From the IMG/VR virus record IMGVR_UViG_3300025769_000645, positions 1-27,924 of that record: a stretch of DNA of 27,924 nucleotides. The stretch is one strand, 5' to 3'. This document shows, in pieces, positions 253 to 25,076 of this stretch. The position numbers were made by a program, and so were the translations under genes. The DNA comes from a virus. Below the pieces are notes generated by a model that worked only from the letters and a program-made list of their open reading frames with translations, had not been told where the DNA came from and did no database searches. The first letter of the stretch is position 1. Every line of letters begins with the position of its first letter.

Positions 253-509
253 AAACTAGACTCGGGCGACAAACTCGAGGATCTATGTTTATGCGTTGGT
301 TCTTTTTTGCATCCGCAGTTATTGGGTGCCTTATTCTCACCACATTTACAGATAGAATATTTCAAGTTTTGGGTTGGGGTATTTCAACAGTCAGTTGTCT
401 GGGTTGGGTCATCATTGCCATACAAGACCGCGACACCCCTCGTATGTTGATGGAACTCATGTACGCCGGTATGGGTGCCTGGGGTTTTATTAATTGGTTG
501 ACAAATTAA
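249..509 (+). CDS. Small integral membrane protein
   Basis: An 86-aa protein with a basic N-terminus (KTRLGRQTRG) and two or three hydrophobic stretches: about residues 15-32, 38-57, and a weaker C-terminal one ending GAWGFINWLTN. The positive N-terminus suggests N-in topology in the inner membrane. The start is coupled to the basic 45-aa gene through ATGA. Size and topology would fit a holin or superinfection-exclusion protein, but its place among early small genes, far from the late operon, makes lysis unlikely. Family unknown. The TTGACA of the next promoter lies in its last codons. Confidence 0.7.
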   Translation: MKTRLGRQTRGSMFMRWFFFASAVIGCLILTTFTDRIFQVLGWGISTVSCLGWVIIAIQDRDTPRMLMELMYAGMGAWGFINWLTN

Positions 510-527
510 TATAATATCCTATATATT
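498..527 (+). promoter_or_regulatory. Sigma70-like promoter with ATCCTA element
   Basis: A perfect TTGACA (498-503) stands 18 bases before TATATT (522-527), overlapping the end of the membrane-protein gene and about 25 bases before the ribbon-helix-helix gene. The stretch TCCTATATATTCTCC (517-531) overlaps the -10 and closely resembles the TCCTATATTATCC element of the promoters at 6450-8992. It probably drives the gene at 552 and those after it. Confidence 0.6.
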
Positions 528-551: not shown

Positions 552-716
552 ATGACAGACTTTACAAGATATAAAAATGTAACCGTTGATAAGAAAACTT
601 ATGAGACGATTACAAAGATGCAGACCAAGTTAACTCCTGATACGAAACTATCACGTAGTCAGGTTGTAACTTCATTAGTGAATGAGAAAGCGAGAAAACT
701 TAATGGCAAACTATAA
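552..716 (+). CDS. Ribbon-helix-helix-type DNA-binding protein (candidate regulator)
   Basis: A 54-aa protein with a good Shine-Dalgarno (AAGGAG, 541-546). Its order of parts fits the Arc/MetJ/CopG fold: a short strand (YKNVTVDKKTYE, about residues 7-18), a first helix ending near TKMQTKL, then a turn and second helix beginning LSRSQVVTSLVNEK (about residues 33-46). Such proteins bind operators as dimers through the N-terminal strand. Its own promoter carries an ATCCTA element like those in the accessory promoters further right, so autorepression and control of that segment are reasonable guesses. The fold is inferred from pattern only. It overlaps the next gene by 14 bases. Confidence 0.65.
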   Translation: MTDFTRYKNVTVDKKTYETITKMQTKLTPDTKLSRSQVVTSLVNEKARKLNGKL

Positions 717-3847: not shown

Positions 3848-4063
3848 ATGGCAACAATCAAAAAAGCGGTCGAGGACGCAATCCTCGAATTACTTGACGA
3901 AGGTAAGATCATTATCAAAGGACCAGACGGCGATGAGATGGAAGATCTGACTGTTGAGTTTAAACTTACTGAAGATGATGATTATGTTGTCTCAGATGAA
4001 GAATCAGAAGAGGATGAAGACGACGAAGAAGATGACGATGAGGACGAAGACGAAGACAAATAA
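3848..4063 (+). CDS. Small protein with poly-Asp/Glu tail
   Basis: A 71-aa protein. I start it at the ATG at 3848 (MATIKKAVEDAI), which has a strong AGGGAGGG box at 3838-3845; the longer frame upstream is the out-of-frame reading of the zinc-finger gene. Residues 1-41 form a small domain (AILELLDEGKIIIKGPDGDEMEDLTVEFKL); residues 42-71 are nearly all Asp and Glu with one final Lys. Acidic tails can mimic DNA or bind basic proteins. Its last 82 bases overlap, on the other strand, the 3' end of the small terminase gene. Function unknown. Confidence 0.65.
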   Translation: MATIKKAVEDAILELLDEGKIIIKGPDGDEMEDLTVEFKLTEDDDYVVSDEESEEDEDDEEDDDEDEDEDK

Positions 4064-4551
4064 TGTTTGTCTTTAACTTTTTCTTTAAGTTCTTCAACTT
4101 CAACCCCATCAAGGATTGGTGAGTATTCGTCGATAATCTGCTTCATTCGAGTCTCTAACTCGTCTGCAGATAAATCGTCGAGCTTACCAGTCCTAATAAT
4201 TTTTTGTTCTATATACAATCCTGCTGCCTTGCCTCTTGCAACCTCTGCATTGACCGCAGCACTCCAGGCTTTGTTCTTTAACGCTTCTTGTCTAATCTTA
4301 CCTAATTCTGTGATATGTGAACCATAGTTAATTTCGTATTTCTTTTGATATTCTTCTCTGATCTCTCCAATAAATTTTACAACCAAAGGATATTTACGTG
4401 GGTTTGTTAATTCAGAGGCAGTGACTCTTGCTCTGTCTTTAGAATAACCTGCATCAATGGCACACTCTGTTTTTGTTTTACGACCCTCATTGCTCACAAG
4501 CTCTTGAGCAAATTTTATTTGTTGTTCTGTCAATCTTTTTGGTAAACCCAT
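3982..4551 (-). CDS. terS: Terminase small subunit with poly-Ser tail
   Basis: A 189-aa protein. Residues 7-60 (LTEQQIKFAQELVSNEGRKT, then AIDAGYSKDRARVTASELTNP) match the N-terminal helix-turn-helix of Terminase_2-type small subunits, which recognise the packaging site and recruit the large subunit. A central helical region (70-165), probably for oligomerisation, follows. Residues 166-182 are seventeen serines in a row, ending DSSSETT. The Ser tail is encoded opposite the Asp/Glu tail of the convergent gene, so it may be a by-product of overlap. It sits on the strand opposite to, and about 5 kb from, the large subunit, which is unusual since the two are normally adjacent. Confidence 0.8.
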   Translation of the reverse strand: MGLPKRLTEQQIKFAQELVSNEGRKTKTECAIDAGYSKDRARVTASELTNPRKYPLVVKFIGEIREEYQKKYEINYGSHITELGKIRQEALKNKAWSAAVNAEVARGKAAGLYIEQKIIRTGKLDDLSADELETRMKQIIDEYSPILDGVEVEELKEKVKDKHYLSSSSSSSSSSSSSSSSSDSSSETT

Positions 4552-5389: not shown

Positions 5390-5758
5390 GTGAAACCTGA
5401 AACAAAATTCTGGCAAGAAGTTCGTAAAAAATTGTCCAAAATAAGGTGGACAAGGATTGAAAACATTAGTGTTCCTGGTGTTCCAGACCTATTGGGATAC
5501 AACAAGAATCATGTCTTTTTTACAGTTGAGCTAAAAGTAACTCATCGTCAACAAATTCGTTTCTCACCACACCAAATTGCCTTTCATATGACCCACCCAC
5601 TAAACAGTTTTATCTTAGTAAAGCACCTTGCTTCTAGCGACGTGAAACTTTACGAGGGACAACAAATTGAAGAGCTTGCCGCTTGCGGCTTGACGCTTGA
5701 CGCTTGCTGCTTGGGGCTTGAGGCTTGCGGCTCGTTCTTTGAGCAGCTTGGCGCTTGA
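5390..5758 (+). CDS. VRR-NUC-like PD-(D/E)XK nuclease with repeat-derived tail
   Basis: A 122-aa protein with GTG start. Motifs: a first helix (ETKFWQEVRKKL), GVPDLLGY (Asp33), VELKV (Glu47, Lys49), and SPHQIAFH (59-66). These are the PD...ExK core and the following helix of VRR-NUC-type nucleases, which in phages are linked to junction cutting and replication. The domain is complete by about residue 90. From residue 95 the sequence (LAACGLTLDACCLGLEACG) is simply the GCTTGNN heptanucleotide repeat in translation, so the natural C-terminus seems to have been overwritten. Nuclease call good; exact substrate unknown. Confidence 0.75.
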   Translation: MKPETKFWQEVRKKLSKIRWTRIENISVPGVPDLLGYNKNHVFFTVELKVTHRQQIRFSPHQIAFHMTHPLNSFILVKHLASSDVKLYEGQQIEELAACGLTLDACCLGLEACGSFFEQLGA

Positions 5759-5801
5759 AGCTTGTAGCTTGCGGCTTGTCGCTTGTTGCTTGAGGCTTGG
5801 C
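5674..5801 (+). repeat. Heptanucleotide repeat block 1 (GCTTGNN x 8 + 8)
   Basis: Eight units of seven bases (5674-5729), a 16-base interruption, then eight more (5746-5801). Each unit has GCTTG fixed and two free bases (CC, CG, AC, CT, GG, AG and others). Seven is not a multiple of three, so the reading frame cycles every three units. The block starts inside the VRR-NUC-like gene and ends next to the strong hairpin at 5802-5847. Confidence 0.9.
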
Positions 5802-5847
5802 GCTCCAGGTCCCGGCAACTCTGTTTAACCGGGCCCAGTCCTGGAGC
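5802..5847. terminator. Strong hairpin between convergent genes
   Basis: GCTCCAGG (5802-5809) pairs perfectly with CCTGGAGC (5840-5847), and inside it CCCGG (5811-5815) pairs with CCGGG (5829-5833). It lies between the stops of the plus-strand nuclease and the minus-strand GP88-like gene. No T run follows on either strand, so it may be a transcript end-stabiliser or a factor-dependent terminator. Confidence 0.5.
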
Positions 5848-5851
5848 ATGT

Positions 5852-6448
5852 TTAGTGAGCTGCGTAGGCAACATTTTTAACTGATTTGTCCCAACAAGCT
5901 CGGCAGTCTTTACACGCGTTATCCTGGGAGGGTGCCGGGCATGTAGCTGCAGCGCCTTTAGTTACAACGGTTGAAGTATTCGGCCAGCTTGCCGGCGCGT
6001 CCTGGTCTACCATTGTAGCAGAAAATCTAATTACAAGATTATCCGGAGCCAGGTCTAAATATTTTTTAACCCACGCTTCACGCGTTGGCATCCAGTGAGC
6101 GGTGTCCGGTGTTAACCTACAAACAGCAAAAATTTTAGATAAGTGTTCCACGTCCTGGACGTCTCCGGAATCATGCCATCTAAAAAACTTGTTACGCTTA
6201 GCGCCTATTTGTGCAGCCATGGCCTCTACCCATTTAGGATGTTTAATTGATTCTAGCCGCTTGTATTGAGCTGCTTGAACCACTTTAAAAACATAACAAC
6301 CTTTTAGAGCATAACACCCATGGCAGGTGCTGCCTTTAATTTTAACAAGTTTAGATCCGGTTTTGCATTCCTTAGCCGGCAGGCCGTAGGCGTGCCCTGG
6401 CATTTTTGAAGGCTTGGAAAGTGAGCCCGTTATCGCTTTATAATTCAT
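5852..6448 (-). CDS. GP88-like family phage protein
   Basis: A 198-aa protein. Seen in order: SKPSKMPGHAYGLPAKEC (11-28), CHGCYALKGCY (Cys42, Cys45, Cys51), FFRWHDSGDVQ (88-98), HWMPTRE (118-124), NLVIRFSATM (137-146), and a C-terminal cluster CPAPS (Cys170) and CKDCRACW (Cys179, 182, 185), ending near VAYAAH. This matches the 'gene product 88' family of phages and environmental viruses, as I know it. The Cys clusters suggest bound metal or an iron-sulfur site; the biochemical role is not known. It looks less AT-rich than its neighbours. The ATG follows an AGGAT box closely; the start is set by the conserved N-terminus. Confidence 0.8.
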   Translation of the reverse strand: MNYKAITGSLSKPSKMPGHAYGLPAKECKTGSKLVKIKGSTCHGCYALKGCYVFKVVQAAQYKRLESIKHPKWVEAMAAQIGAKRNKFFRWHDSGDVQDVEHLSKIFAVCRLTPDTAHWMPTREAWVKKYLDLAPDNLVIRFSATMVDQDAPASWPNTSTVVTKGAAATCPAPSQDNACKDCRACWDKSVKNVAYAAH

Positions 6449-6453
6449 ATCCT

Positions 6454-6482
6454 ATATTATCCTTTATTAATAAGTTTGTCAA
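6454..6482 (-). promoter_or_regulatory. Minus-strand promoter-like element before the GP88-like gene
   Basis: Read on the minus strand: TTGACA (6482-6477), 17 bases, TAATAT (6459-6454). The predicted start site nearly coincides with the ATG at 6448. The plus strand reads TCCTATATTATCC at 6450-6462, identical to the 13-mer at 8977-8989. It overlaps the end of the neighbouring minus-strand gene. Confidence 0.5.
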
Positions 6483-6639
6483 CCGGCTTGTGGCTTGCAG
6501 CTTGAGGCTTGATGCTTGTAGCTTGCGGCTTGATGCTTTTAAAAAATTCCTCACAGCTCTTTACATAGCTGGCCGGCAGCGTCGCGTGGTCCTCCAGGAA
6601 CCAGGCTGTTAAATCATTTTTCTTAATTCGTCTTGTCAT
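6457..6639 (-). CDS. Small hypothetical protein with repeat-derived C-terminus
   Basis: A 60-aa protein starting at the second of two tandem ATGs; this leaves the usual 7 bases after AAAGG. Residues 1-35 (MTRRIKKNDLTAWFLEDHATLP, then SYVKSCEEFFK) look like ordinary protein. From about residue 36 the sequence is the translated heptanucleotide repeat (KPQATSIKPQAASHKP), where 7-base units give a 7-residue period. The repeat-free part has no recognised family. Transcribed from the TTGACA promoter at 6710-6738 with a hairpin leader. Confidence 0.55.
   Translation of the reverse strand: MTRRIKKNDLTAWFLEDHATLPASYVKSCEEFFKSIKPQATSIKPQAASHKPVDKLINKG
6486..6534 (+). repeat. Heptanucleotide repeat block 2 (GCTTGNN x 7)
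   Basis: Seven consecutive units, GCTTG plus two free bases (TG, CA, AG, AT, TA, CG, AT), in the same orientation as block 1. The block encodes the C-terminal half of the small minus-strand gene. It begins a few bases past the TTGACA of the GP88-like gene's promoter. Confidence 0.9.
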
Positions 6640-6659
6640 CATATATCCTTTCTGTTTAT

Positions 6660-6692
6660 GCTGGTTTTGAGTTTAACGACGTCGAGACCAGC
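6660..6692 (-). promoter_or_regulatory. Hairpin in 5' leader of the 6639 gene
   Basis: GCTGGT (6660-6665) pairs with ACCAGC (6687-6692), with a 21-base loop holding the palindrome CGACGTCG (6677-6684). It lies between the predicted transcript start near 6703 and the AAAGGATATAT ribosome-binding site, the same layout as the hairpin before the gene at 6935. Confidence 0.4.
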
Positions 6693-6709
6693 AACTGGAC
6701 GCAGTTATA

Positions 6710-6738
6710 CATATATAGGATCATCCTACATATGTCAA
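6710..6738 (-). promoter_or_regulatory. Minus-strand promoter with TAGGAT palindrome
   Basis: On the minus strand TTGACA (6738-6733), 17 bases, TATATG (6715-6710). The spacer holds a palindrome, TAGGAT and ATCCTA separated by one base (6716-6728), which could be an operator between the promoter boxes. It would drive the small gene at 6639 and perhaps the GP88-like gene. Confidence 0.55.
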
Positions 6739-6752
6739 ATTCTTTTTTCTAG

Positions 6753-6935
6753 TTACTCACAGCTTGCTGCTTGAGGCTTGTCGCTTGAAGCTTCATCCTT
6801 TCCATCTATATTATTAAAAAATTCTTCTATTTCATTATTAAGAAAAGCGTTGGCAGCCTTCTCCGGTTCCAGATCATTTTTCTTACACCATTGTTTAAAT
6901 CTCTTTTGAAGATCTTTTCTAATTTTAATTTTCAT
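6753..6935 (-). CDS. Small basic protein with repeat-derived tail
   Basis: A 60-aa protein started at the ATG at 6935 (MKIKIRKDLQKRFKQWC), placed directly behind GAAAGGATATT; the longer frame upstream runs through hairpin sequence and is unlikely to be translated. Residues 1-45 could form a strand plus two helices (LQKRFKQWCKKNDLEPEKAANAFLNNEIEEFF), reminiscent of small ribbon-helix-helix or helical DNA-binding proteins, but not clearly so. The last residues (SSDKPQAASCE) come from the heptanucleotide repeat. It is preceded by a long structured leader and a minus-strand promoter near 7223-7251. Confidence 0.55.
   Translation of the reverse strand: MKIKIRKDLQKRFKQWCKKNDLEPEKAANAFLNNEIEEFFNNIDGKDEASSDKPQAASCE
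6762..6789 (+). repeat. Heptanucleotide repeat block 3 (GCTTGNN x 4)
   Basis: Four units with free bases CT, AG, TC, AA, then a decayed unit (GCTTCAT). Same strand orientation as blocks 1 and 2. It encodes the last residues of the minus-strand gene ending at 6753. Confidence 0.85.
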
Positions 6936-6941
6936 AATATC

Positions 6942-7222
6942 CTTTCTATGTGCCCTGCTAAAGTGATCACTTGCGCAATAGTCCAGCAGGGACTTTTTTG
7001 GATCCAGGGACGTGTGTCTATTTCCCATGGACCTGGATCCAGAGAACCAAAGTAAAACCTACCAGCTAGCAGTCGGTCGGTTTAACTAGTTACTAGCGAA
7101 CTATCACCGCTTTGGTTCACTGCATCCAAGTGGGGGTGAAGTCATTAGCCCTCAGTGATCAAGAGAAGACCGTCCACCCCCTTAAGGATATATTCACTCA
7201 TGAAAAGAAATGAATACACTCC
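6942..7222 (-). ncRNA. Structured 5' leader or small RNA candidate
   Basis: About 280 bases without a convincing gene, between a minus-strand promoter and the gene at 6935. Inverted repeats in order: CCCTGCT 6953-6959 with AGCAGGG 6985-6991 (loop contains the 12-base palindrome AAGTGATCACTT); a 10-pair stem 6999-7008 with 7032-7041; GAACCAAAG 7044-7052 with CTTTGGTTC 7110-7118, enclosing AAACC 7055-7059 with GGTTT 7079-7083; and GGGGGTG 7132-7138 with CACCCCC 7175-7181. Such dense perfect pairing suggests a folded RNA that may control the small gene or act alone. No known RNA class recognised; the transcribed strand is inferred from the promoter. Confidence 0.45.
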
Positions 7223-7251
7223 TATATAATCCTATTGACATTGATTGTCAA
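7223..7251 (-). promoter_or_regulatory. Minus-strand half of overlapping divergent promoters
   Basis: On the minus strand TTGACA (7251-7246), 17 bases, TATATA (7228-7223). The spacer contains TAGGAT. The -35 is one arm of the palindrome TTGACATTGATTGTCAA (7235-7251), whose other arm is the -35 of the plus-strand promoter. Confidence 0.55.
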
Positions 7252-7263
7252 GGGGTATATAAA
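7235..7263 (+). promoter_or_regulatory. Plus-strand half of overlapping divergent promoters
   Basis: TTGACA (7235-7240), 17 bases, TATAAA (7258-7263), about 23 bases before the ATG at 7287. The leader holds AACGAAAGGATATAAA, the ribosome-binding sequence shared by most genes of this segment. TCCTATATAATCC lies just upstream at 7220-7232. Confidence 0.7.
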
Positions 7264-7286
7264 TTTTTTTAACGAAAGGATATAAA

Positions 7287-8246
7287 ATGCAAACACAAAC
7301 AAAAGACTTTAGACTAAATGCTAATAAGCGTAAGTCTTTAGTATCGCATTACGAAGATCATCTTCGTAATAAAAAAAGCAAAGTTAGAATTGCTTATGAC
7401 AAAGCAAGGGAAAACTTTGTAGAACTGCAACCTAAAATCTGGGAACTGATAACCCAAGTTGTTAGGAAACAGCAACCTCAACAAGATGTAGACACTATTA
7501 ATTCTATGAGAGCAAAGTATGGAGATAATGGCGGTCACATACATGATGATAGTTGTTTTTACTTTACAAATCCTACTGATGAAAAGGATAGCGAGGGTAA
7601 TACAAGAACTAACAACAACGAAATACATCTTGATATGAAACTAGATGCCAATGTTAATAATGGTTATAATAATAACTTTGCTTATGCTTACTATTATGAT
7701 GATTTAAAATTACATGGCTTAGACCCAGACTTTGAGTACAAGTGGGGAGATAAAAGAAATCCAACCTACTACAATGCTGAAAGTGAGGTCAGAGAGTTTA
7801 TAGGTTTTAGTCGTGCTAAAAATGATGATGCTAAAAATAAACCTATCAATGACCCATTTTGGAAACATACTATTCCTGTTATTGGGACAAGTTATTGTCA
7901 TAGTAGACAGTTTCAAGTTGATGACATTACACACTCAACCCTAAATCAATTTAGGATAGCACAACAAGAGTTAGTAAGAACTCATGAAGCTATGTTTAAT
8001 TACATCAATGATAAGGTGACTAAGATTGAGCAAGGTTTAAAATCTTATACTAAGTACAGTCAAGCTAAAGAATTGTTTGATAAACTTGGCATACCTTTAA
8101 ATGAAAGTATGCTAGACGATCAGTCTACAATGGCTCTAAGTGTATTTAGTCCAGAAAATTTGGCGGATATGCTTACAGACCAAGATGACGAGTTTGAAAG
8201 TCGAGAAGCTAAGATTGCTCACTTTAAAGCATTACAGTTAAATTAA
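7287..8246 (+). CDS. 319-aa hypothetical phage protein
   Basis: The largest gene of the accessory segment, with strong promoter and ribosome-binding site. It is polar and rich in Asn, Asp, Lys and Tyr. The N-terminal third is helical and basic (RKSLVSHYEDHLRNKKSKVRI). The middle has acidic and Asn-rich stretches (HIHDDSCFYF, then NNGYNNNFAYAYYYDD). The C-terminal third is again helical (QFRIAQQELVRTHEAMFNYIND through to KALQLN). No signal peptide or membrane segment. I recognise no domain or catalytic motif. Its own promoter and dedicated terminator downstream of the segment point to a discrete, possibly early, expression unit. Confidence 0.75.
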   Translation: MQTQTKDFRLNANKRKSLVSHYEDHLRNKKSKVRIAYDKARENFVELQPKIWELITQVVRKQQPQQDVDTINSMRAKYGDNGGHIHDDSCFYFTNPTDEKDSEGNTRTNNNEIHLDMKLDANVNNGYNNNFAYAYYYDDLKLHGLDPDFEYKWGDKRNPTYYNAESEVREFIGFSRAKNDDAKNKPINDPFWKHTIPVIGTSYCHSRQFQVDDITHSTLNQFRIAQQELVRTHEAMFNYINDKVTKIEQGLKSYTKYSQAKELFDKLGIPLNESMLDDQSTMALSVFSPENLADMLTDQDDEFESREAKIAHFKALQLN

Positions 8247-8249
8247 GAC

Positions 8250-8281
8250 TTGACGGGGTATCCTATTTAATATAGGATACC
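8250..8281 (+). promoter_or_regulatory. Promoter with 10-bp palindromic operator
   Basis: TTGACG (8250-8255), 17 bases, TAGGAT (8273-8278). The arms GGTATCCTAT (8257-8266) and ATAGGATACC (8272-8281) are perfectly complementary around a 5-base centre and cover the spacer and -10. A bound dimer here would block polymerase. It precedes the gene at 8301; the hairpin could also end the upstream transcript, although no T run follows. Confidence 0.6.
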
Positions 8282-8300
8282 TCTAACGAAAGGATATAAT

Positions 8301-8495
8301 ATGAAAGCAACATTTAACATTGGGTACTTCAGCAAAAAGGATAATGGTTTTATTATCCGTAAAGGCAAGGAAGATGATAAGACAAAAAAGTGGACAGCTA
8401 AAAATGGAACGGAATGTTTTACATACTATGATCTAGATAAAATGGGTTATAGAACTGCAACAGGAAACTATAGAATATGGGGGAAGATAGCATGA
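8301..8495 (+). CDS. Small hypothetical protein
   Basis: A 64-aa protein, MKATFNIGYFSKKDNGFIIRKG, with aromatic and basic residues and an apparent small beta-sheet (GFIIRKGK, then CFTYYDLDKMGYRTATGNYRIWGKI). The ribosome-binding leader is AACGAAAGGATATAAT. It overlaps the next start by ATGA. No family recognised. Confidence 0.6.
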   Translation: MKATFNIGYFSKKDNGFIIRKGKEDDKTKKWTAKNGTECFTYYDLDKMGYRTATGNYRIWGKIA

Positions 8496-8635
8496 GTTGG
8501 GAACTAATCGTATTTACATTATGCATATTATCCATATGCATAATTGGGATAGTAGGTTGTATCAATACTTTGGAAGAAATTGATGAGCGAAATAAAAGAG
8601 CAAGGTTTGAATTTAACGAAAGGAATAGAAAATGA
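8492..8635 (+). CDS. Small single-span membrane protein
   Basis: A 47-aa protein: MSWELIVFTLCILSICIIGIVGCINTL is a hydrophobic helix (about residues 5-23), followed by a charged cytoplasmic tail (EEIDERNKRARFEFNERNRK). Both ends overlap neighbours by ATGA, giving three translationally coupled genes (8301, 8492, 8632). The AACGAAAGG ribosome-binding site for the next gene lies within its last codons. No family recognised. Confidence 0.55.
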   Translation: MSWELIVFTLCILSICIIGIVGCINTLEEIDERNKRARFEFNERNRK

Positions 8636-8958
8636 GTCAGTTTAATTGGTGTCATGGACCAGAGTGCCACACGTATCACACCTTAGGTAGAATTAGAGGT
8701 GTGAAAGGCAATAAGGTTTTAAGGACCAGAAAAATAAGTCAAAGTTCACATTATAATTTAAATGATTGGTCAAGTCGTTGGTGGGCTTATTTCTGCGATG
8801 AGAGATGTAGAACTGATTATATACATAAACACTTAACCGCTATCCTAAGACTAGAGCCAAGGACCGAGCCACTCGAAACGAGCATCGAGGTGCAACAGAC
8901 AAAAAAACTAGACTGGCAAGGCAATCCATACATAGATAAAAAAATAGTAGAAGCATAG
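8632..8958 (+). CDS. Zinc-ribbon-like hypothetical protein
   Basis: A 108-aa protein with CHGPECHTYH near the N-terminus (Cys7, Cys12) and YFCDERCRTDYIHKH (about residues 54-68). The pairs C-x4-C and C-x3-C separated by about 40 residues, with a helix after the second pair, suggest a zinc ribbon or treble-clef finger. The middle is basic and the end acidic. Function unknown. It is the last gene of the coupled triplet. Confidence 0.6.
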   Translation: MSQFNWCHGPECHTYHTLGRIRGVKGNKVLRTRKISQSSHYNLNDWSSRWWAYFCDERCRTDYIHKHLTAILRLEPRTEPLETSIEVQQTKKLDWQGNPYIDKKIVEA

Positions 8959-8992
8959 TTGACAAGGGGATAGTATTCCTATATTATCCCCT
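8959..8992 (+). promoter_or_regulatory. Near-consensus promoter with inverted repeat
   Basis: TTGACA (8959-8964), 17 bases, TATTAT (8982-8987). AGGGGATA (8965-8972) is complementary to TATCCCCT (8985-8992), spanning spacer and -10. The 13-mer TCCTATATTATCC (8977-8989) is identical to the one at 6450-6462. It precedes the gene at 9011 by about 20 bases. Confidence 0.65.
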
Positions 8993-9010: not shown

Positions 9011-9187
9011 ATGCCAATAAGAACTAACCCATACTCAGGAGAATCAGCTGAGTTAACAGACGAGCAAGCAGCGTTACACGACGAGATAAAAAACGCTGAA
9101 CTTAATGAAGATTACGACACAGTACAAAAAGGACTAAGCAAGTTTGCCAAGCTTAATCCATCTGCCTACATGACATTATTAGATTAA
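9011..9187 (+). CDS. Small acidic hypothetical protein
   Basis: A 58-aa protein, MPIRTNPYSGESAELTDEQAAL, with two likely helices (TDEQAALHDEIKNAEL and YDTVQKGLSKFAKL). Strong promoter, AACGAAAGGATATATT leader and a following terminator make it a single-gene transcription unit, which suggests real and possibly high expression. No homologous family recognised. Confidence 0.65.
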   Translation: MPIRTNPYSGESAELTDEQAALHDEIKNAELNEDYDTVQKGLSKFAKLNPSAYMTLLD

Positions 9188-9199
9188 TAGAGGTACCAG

Positions 9200-9231
9200 C
9201 AACGAGCCAAAAATAGGCTCGTTGTTTTTTT
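9200..9231 (+). terminator. Intrinsic terminator
   Basis: CAACGAGCC (9200-9208) pairs perfectly with GGCTCGTTG (9216-9224) around a 7-base A-rich loop, followed by seven T. It closes the accessory segment before the late operon. Confidence 0.9.
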
Positions 9232-23902: not shown

Positions 23903-23929
23903 TTGGGGCCAGACACAATCTGGCCCCAA
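23903..23929 (+). terminator. Hairpin after the capsid gene
   Basis: TTGGGGCCAGA (23903-23913) and TCTGGCCCCAA (23919-23929) pair perfectly around a 5-base loop. The plus-strand tail is TTAAAAATT, a poor T run, so it may only attenuate or protect the capsid mRNA end. Confidence 0.75.
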
Positions 23930-25031: not shown

Positions 25032-25037
25032 TAATTT

Positions 25038-25062
25038 AAGGTGCTCCTTCGGGAGCACCTTT
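25038..25062 (+). terminator. UUCG-loop terminator
   Basis: GGTGCTCC (25040-25047) pairs perfectly with GGAGCACC (25052-25059) around TTCG, a very stable cUUCGg tetraloop, flanked by AA/TTT. The T run is only three long, so read-through to the next genes is expected. Confidence 0.8.
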
Positions 25063-25076
25063 AAAAGGAGATATAA

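Follow-up and report, generated by a model that had tools for sequence, protein, structure and literature searches.

Hairpins between genes have been described in several settings. Repetitive extragenic palindromic and bacterial interspersed mosaic element (REP/BIME)-like hairpins, together with other intercistronic 3' stabilising hairpins, are stem-loops that follow a stop codon in an operon-like array. The RNase III sites of phage T7 are intercistronic hairpins coupled to promoters that give separate messages; these hairpins are longer and lie within the new transcript. In phage T4, a hairpin is combined with a late promoter at genes e, soc and I-TevI. The hairpin forms only in transcripts from upstream, and the overlapping promoter yields a hairpin-free message (PMC3014915, PMC2988022). 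In a second phage case, seg43(25) of Aeromonas phage 25, a highly stable hairpin lies in an intercistronic gap directly upstream of a ribosome-binding site that is left free (PMC2988022).

Here we describe palindromes that overlap promoters in the linear IMG/VR virus record IMGVR_UViG_3300025769_000645, which was analysed at its full length of 27,924 nt and is called the window below. The palindromes lie in a promoter segment flanked by the genes for the small and large terminase subunits, and judging from the way their arms vary they are very likely sense-strand RNA hairpins. The closest known analogue is the combination of hairpin and late promoter in T4. The likeness is positional, in that the promoter overlaps the hairpin and its own RNA would lack the 5' arm; the T4 arrangement differs in that its ribosome-binding site is sequestered, whereas here this site is free, the promoter is host-type and the hairpin appears to belong to the end of the upstream gene. 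Unlike REP/BIME-like hairpins, the pelagiphage element has no conserved repeat sequence, is fused to a promoter and sits in a short phage gap, and unlike the T7 sites its hairpin should end before the start point. The seg43(25) hairpin is a single case that lacks a deep covariation series, and the available part of its report makes no mention of a host-type promoter with the −10 box in the 3' arm (PMC2988022).

Promoters and palindromes of the segment

A search for TTGAC[AG]-N17-(TANNNT or TATANN) identified exactly six promoters in the 27.9-kb window, all of them within a 2.5-kb segment. The first-pass annotation, made from the sequence alone, had listed six TTGACA/TTGACG promoters with 17-base spacers within about 2.5 kb, and every one was recovered where it had been placed. 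The shuffled-sequence control that it had called for also agreed: dinucleotide shuffles of the window contained a mean of 0.9 such promoters, 0 of 200 shuffles reached six, and shuffles of the 2.5-kb segment contained a mean of 0.06. By sequence, the elements fit a sigma70-type promoter (TTGACA and TANNNT separated by 16–18 bp), and they are presumably used by host RNA polymerase. The six promoters and the three predicted hairpins are as follows.

6454..6482, minus strand: promoter TTGACA-17-TAATAT with a AGGATAATATAGGA direct repeat, overlapping the end of the upstream open reading frame (ORF); no hairpin
6710..6738, minus strand: promoter TTGACA-17-TATATG
6709..6735, minus strand as sense: predicted RNA hairpin after the stop codon of a ribbon-helix-helix (RHH)-like ORF, 12-bp stem with one G.U, −14.0 kcal/mol, z −4.4 (antisense −9.1)
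7223..7251, minus strand: head-of-unit divergent promoter TTGACA-17-TATATA; no hairpin
7235..7263, plus strand: head-of-unit promoter of a 319-amino acid (aa) gene; no hairpin (fold z +1.3)
8250..8278, plus strand: promoter TTGACG-17-TAGGAT of a 64-aa gene (gp36-like)
8255..8283, plus strand: predicted intercistronic RNA hairpin, 12-bp stem with one G.U, loop UUAAU, −18.3 kcal/mol, z −5.7
8959..8987, plus strand: promoter TTGACA-17-TATTAT of a 58-aa gene (gp39-like)
8965..8992, plus strand: predicted intercistronic RNA hairpin, 12-bp stem with one G.U, −17.0 kcal/mol, z −4.6

Palindromes were thus present at three of the six promoters; the others, 7251(−), 7235(+) and 6482(−), are host-type promoters without a hairpin. 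The palindromes at 6716–6728 and 8257–8281 recognized in the first pass are real and, as RNA, extend to 12-bp stems, and the hairpin at 8965..8992 is an addition to them; relative L012 has a perfect 27-bp palindrome of the same type. The −10 box of the 8250 promoter lies within the 3' arm of hairpin 8255..8283, which ends just before the expected start point. For all three hairpins the antisense fold was 4–5 kcal/mol weaker than the sense fold. The window gave no Rfam match at the gathering threshold, and a literature search found no paper on these hairpins.

The 13-mer TCCTATATTATCC had been noted at these promoters in the first pass. It does occur exactly at 6450 and 8977 and with one mismatch at 7220. 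As a common motif it fared less well: three near matches compare with 0.73 expected, 4 of 100 shuffles reached three, and its direction relative to transcription at 6482(−) is the reverse of that at 8959(+), so that it does not form a single oriented motif. A single operator motif based on this 13-mer, barely above chance and inconsistently oriented, was rejected, as was the reading of the palindrome as a bidirectional promoter, since by inspection the other strand has no −35 box at 8250.

The same promoter layout is common to Pelagibacter phage HTVC027P, which is 71% identical to the window in the terL region over the aligned parts, and to many IMG/VR relatives. HTVC027P (L001) has promoters at 7458(−), 7781(−), 9287(+) and 9837(+) and a divergent pair near 8240; three carry TAGGAT as the −10 box. 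Across its whole genome, intergenic TAGGA-bearing promoters of this form cluster at the same place, in line with the prediction that the motif would be found at the same gene set in relatives. The overlapping back-to-back −35 boxes of the divergent pair 7251(−)/7235(+) were kept in 82 distinct relatives, with the consensus TTGACAAT....TTGTCAAG.ATTATAT for the promoter at 7223..7251. Close IMG/VR relatives have sites that are nearly identical letter for letter. Distant relatives keep TTGACA, the 17-bp spacing and TANNNT, and the palindrome sequence differs in each, e.g. GGGGATAGTATATCCTATACTATCCCC (L012), ATGTATGGGATAATATATTATCCCATACAT (L019) and GTTAGGGAGTTTCCTATAAACTCCCTAAC (L081).

Public collections were scanned with patterns, and the resulting site counts are lower bounds. 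A palindrome-blind pattern, TTGACA-N16..18-TANNNT-N-AACAGAAAGG, returned at least 127 distinct sites, 38 of which had an inverted-repeat score of 9 or more compared to about 0.3 in shuffles; the scores were bimodal. Among the matches listed for gp36-like ORFs, a hairpin was present in 140 of 159 distinct upstream regions (0.5% in shuffles). In all 140 hairpin-bearing sites a TTGAC box adjoined the stem, and TANNNT followed at exactly 17 nt in 120 and at 16–18 nt in 136. Most sites are the junction between the homologues of HTVC027P gp35 and gp36, with a smaller share at other junctions. SAR11 is the host of the widespread HTVC023P-type pelagiphages; a motif scan of bacterial genomes (257 billion bases) gave 24 matches against a chance estimate of about 22, none of them titled SAR11.

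Pairing of the arms

A DNA operator or a cruciform is strand-symmetric, whereas hairpin RNA of the sense strand tolerates only G.U. Across about 140 distinct relatives the sequence, length and centre of the arms varied and their complementarity was kept. We scanned for the right arm only (TAGGAT-NN-TCCCAT) and considered sites with a left GGGR..ATY. In at least 42 distinct sites NN took four values, and the left dinucleotide was the exact complement in 36 of the 42 and paired by a U.G wobble in the other 6. In the gp36 set, the non-Watson-Crick pairs at deep stem positions were 19 G.U, 17 U.G and 1 U.U, with no A.C or C.A. Where C.A mismatches were seen, they were mostly at loop-closing positions (CTATAAG) rather than in stem pairs; with a depth filter, 3 A.C-type and 18 G.U-type pairs remained, one of the three (L447) looks unrelated to the family, and there were none in the gp36 set. 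The mean fold of the 140 sites was −17.9 kcal/mol for the sense strand and −16.3 kcal/mol for the antisense strand.

In a 46-row ungapped alignment, 35 cells were changed on both sides compared to 11 in shuffles, and the covariation score was 0.193 compared to 0.078, a value that 0 of 500 shuffles reached; these counts are of sequences and not of events. Shifting the partner by one column abolished pairing. On the gp35 tree, the left dinucleotide changed at least 31 times and the right at least 24 times, and the supported independent contrasts were compensatory in 7.3 of 10 and 7.0 of 8 cases, with none in the opposite direction (p about 0.016 each). Compensatory changes and sense-strand G.U pairs, as expected of a conserved RNA hairpin, were both found. 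Because the arms co-vary by pairing, with G.U on the sense strand, these data point to an RNA hairpin in the transcript that arrives from upstream.

Position and proposed role of the hairpin

The stem usually starts 5–9 nt from the first T of TTGACA and mostly ends 2–11 nt behind the −10 box, itself part of the 3' arm. The upstream gene mostly has its stop codon 6 nt before TTGACA. As the stem should end at about the start point, RNA from the promoter itself should begin at the stem base without the hairpin.

The gene to which the hairpin belongs was apparent from the 3' flanks of gp35-like genes. A hairpin was found in all 144 distinct flanks (141 with a score of 9 or more, 3 with a score of 8), and it followed the gp35 stop codon whether the next gene was gp36, gp37 or another; such a fixed place behind the upstream stop is what an intercistronic 3' stabiliser or processing element would occupy. 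In L396, L428, L496 and L138 the gp35 and gp36 genes are arranged head to head; a TAGGAT-like −10 box is mostly retained at gp36 there, with no hairpin, and the gp35 3' flank still carries a hairpin. The hairpin was also absent from L165 and L164, in which no co-directional gene was seen directly before the gp36-like gene, and from divergent head-of-unit promoters. At a few other gp36-like genes without it (L389, L135, L180, L171 and others) another small gene is inserted, and at several such loci the hairpin stands at the gp35 boundary instead. Hairpin and promoter are not always fused: L115 has the hairpin after gp35 without a preceding TTGACA, and in HTVC023P the hairpin and a TTGACT promoter follow in succession. 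Behind the capsid gene, too, a hairpin of different sequence stands at the same place in the window, in HTVC027P and in 023Pt_psg01. From the constancy of the gp35 flank, the absence at divergent heads, the unfused cases and the capsid-gene hairpins we conclude that the hairpin goes with the 3' end of the upstream gene and with tandem junctions.

On balance, we favour the explanation that the palindromes at the plus-strand promoters and at 6709–6735 are intercistronic RNA boundary hairpins lying over a host-type promoter (TTGACA-17-TANNNT). A transcript from the upstream gene would carry the hairpin just behind the stop codon of that gene, where it would mark the 3' end of the message, either as a barrier to 3' exonucleases or as an endonuclease processing site. 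A transcript from the embedded promoter would start just after the hairpin, with a short leader and a free ribosome-binding site. The boundary hairpin would thereby separate two neighbouring, independently expressed genes. The predicted 3' boundary function, as stabiliser or processing site, is probable, and it is favoured because the Shine-Dalgarno (SD) sequence is not sequestered (stem and SD sequence overlap at 1 of 140 sites) and because no U-tract follows the stem (1 of 46 cases has a T-rich tail, and the tail is A-rich).

Several points weigh against this explanation. A single orthologous junction, gp35/gp36, accounts for most sites, so that the counts are not independent events, and the tree-based contrasts are few. 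Non-orthologous junctions that share the hairpin-promoter feature are also few in number. Some letters of the stem may be fixed for another reason, because the −10 box sits in the 3' arm. The start point and the 3' end of the transcripts are predictions, and a protein might bind the RNA hairpin or the DNA palindrome.

The next best alternative, although an unlikely one, is a translational gate of the T4 gene e/I-TevI type, in which the hairpin would form next to the ribosome-binding site of read-through (earlier) messages and keep their translation low, and messages from the gene's own promoter, lacking it, would be translated. The expected lack of the hairpin in own-promoter RNA agrees with such a gate, and in nearly all sites the stem ends 1–10 nt before the SD sequence, inside the 30S footprint. 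The T4 precedent also extends to the non-sequestering hairpin of seg43(25) (PMC2988022). However, the near absence of overlap between the SD sequence and the stem is the opposite of what sequestration needs, the ribosome-binding site being outside the stem, and where gp36 is relocated the hairpin stays behind at the gp35 3' flank.

Somewhat less likely again is a transcription attenuator or insulator, at which incoming polymerase would pause or terminate and be kept off the next promoter. The hairpin is present only where transcription arrives from upstream, and its stems fold at −13 to −22 kcal/mol. The lack of a U-tract argues against it, and the same phage has an ordinary terminator at 9198–9226; identification of the element as an intrinsic terminator was rejected on the U-tract.

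The first-pass annotation had read the segment as a dedicated regulon with its own operator, and a phage repressor operator, with one regulator such as an RHH or WYL-like protein binding the palindromes, now appears improbable. The palindromes do overlap −10 boxes, RHH-like ORFs are present at 552 and 6753, the downstream gene product is WYL-like and the minus-strand genes have their own timing. An operator regulon would share one consensus half-site at fixed spacing in all members, but three of the six promoters in the window have no palindrome, and the GGG..CCC span, 14–30 bp in 131 stems, takes nearly every value from 18 to 30 bp, which would not be acceptable to a rigid dimer. Moreover, the arms differ within one genome yet match each other, the gp36 set contains G.U but no A.C, and the hairpin is absent at divergent heads that keep the −10 box. 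Variable spacing, covariation by pairing and absence at heads together argue against a DNA operator and fit an RNA hairpin formed on read-through. What stands of the regulon proposal is that the segment has strong host-type promoters of its own, conserved in relatives; the shared operator for one regulator does not. In gene-level RNA-seq of cells infected with HTVC027P, gp33 and gp34, the minus-strand genes served by two such promoters, form their own expression cluster at 6–9 h (PMC12753301). Finally, a DNA cruciform acting as a supercoiling switch or an N4-type single-strand hairpin promoter is very improbable despite long perfect inverted repeats with 0–9 nt loops at promoters, as the wobble bias marks the sense strand only and a cruciform needs both strands, while the N4 type combines a template-strand hairpin with a phage virion RNA polymerase and HTVC027P encodes no RNA polymerase (PMC12753301).

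Gene context and implications

The minus-strand set of the segment consists of a 198-aa GP88 family gene, a 61-aa ORF and a 60-aa RHH-like ORF, and the plus-strand set of ORFs of 319, 64, 52, 108 and 58 aa. These features, and a promoter outside the segment, are listed below.

498..527, plus strand: seventh promoter, TTGACA-18-TATATT, before the RHH-like ORF 552–716
5852..6448, minus strand: 198-aa GP88 family gene (PF17338, E 1.6e-27), at the same position as HTVC027P gp33
6457..6642, minus strand: 61-aa ORF
6753..6935, minus strand: 60-aa RHH/Arc-like ORF behind a structured leader (weak match to the phrog_582 Arc-like repressor, E 0.04)
7287..8246, plus strand: 319-aa gene, homologue of HTVC027P gp35
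8301..8495, plus strand: 64-aa gene, homologue of HTVC027P gp36, predicted small WYL-like barrel
8477..8635, plus strand: 52-aa ORF
8632..8958, plus strand: 108-aa gene, homologue of HTVC027P gp37
9011..9187, plus strand: 58-aa gene, homologue of HTVC027P gp39
9198..9226, plus strand: ordinary intrinsic terminator with a U-tract that closes the plus-strand unit

A structure search with the 319-aa protein gave no match. The 64-aa protein (8301–8495) was predicted to form a small, stand-alone WYL-like barrel (pLDDT 89; PafBC, BrxR and CapW were the best folds, E 0.03), and on the basis of this model it might act on RNA polymerase or nucleic acid. The product of the small RHH-like ORF 552–716 (+), which had no family match, is a candidate regulator of the early unit; HTVC027P gp21 is preceded by a promoter similar to that at 498.

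The RHH-like ORF at 6753..6935 is separated from promoter 7251(−) by a 281-nt leader at 6936–7216 (−), with a fold of −102.6 kcal/mol (z −5.3). This leader had no Rfam match, inverted repeats occur at its position in HTVC027P and 023Pt_psg01 as well, and it is possibly a new structured RNA. Elsewhere in the window, a hairpin of −20.9 kcal/mol lies directly behind the capsid gene at 23903–23929 (+), with hairpins of different sequence at the same place in HTVC027P (L095 4963–4989) and 023Pt_psg01 (L097 2227–2255), and a UUCG-loop hairpin lies directly before a ribosome-binding site at 25035–25064 (+). A second palindrome family, ACAATGGC-N-GCCATTGT after CGACAATATTG, was constant on the outside and variable but symmetric on the inside, with the following members.

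L076, 921–945
L084, 145–169 and 731–755
L087, 2895–2919

Repeats of the GCTTGAGGCTTG type at 5615–5850, 6495–6545 and 6760–6800 encode KPQASS in ORF ends, and similar repeats are found at the same places in HTVC027P. The terminase small subunit (3982–4551, minus strand) has a long C-terminal poly-serine run, SSSSSSSS.

We are inclined to regard the pelagiphage arrangement as a two-way element, in which about 30 bp would serve at once as the complete core of a host-type promoter and as an RNA boundary hairpin whose sequence drifts freely. This hairpin would exist in read-through RNA only, and since its arms are tied to the −10 box the two functions would co-evolve. The asymmetry between G.U and A.C pairs offers a general way of distinguishing RNA hairpins from DNA operators, and if our explanation is true it corrects a tempting misreading of promoter palindromes as operators. 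It would also allow the possible RNA boundary functions of the hairpin to be tested cleanly against one another, and would provide a marker by which the borders of transcription units could be searched for in uncultured phages. HTVC027P has no RNA polymerase gene of its own, and the function of its early genes is unknown (PMC12753301). The element would bear on gene timing in pelagiphages that rely on host polymerase alone.

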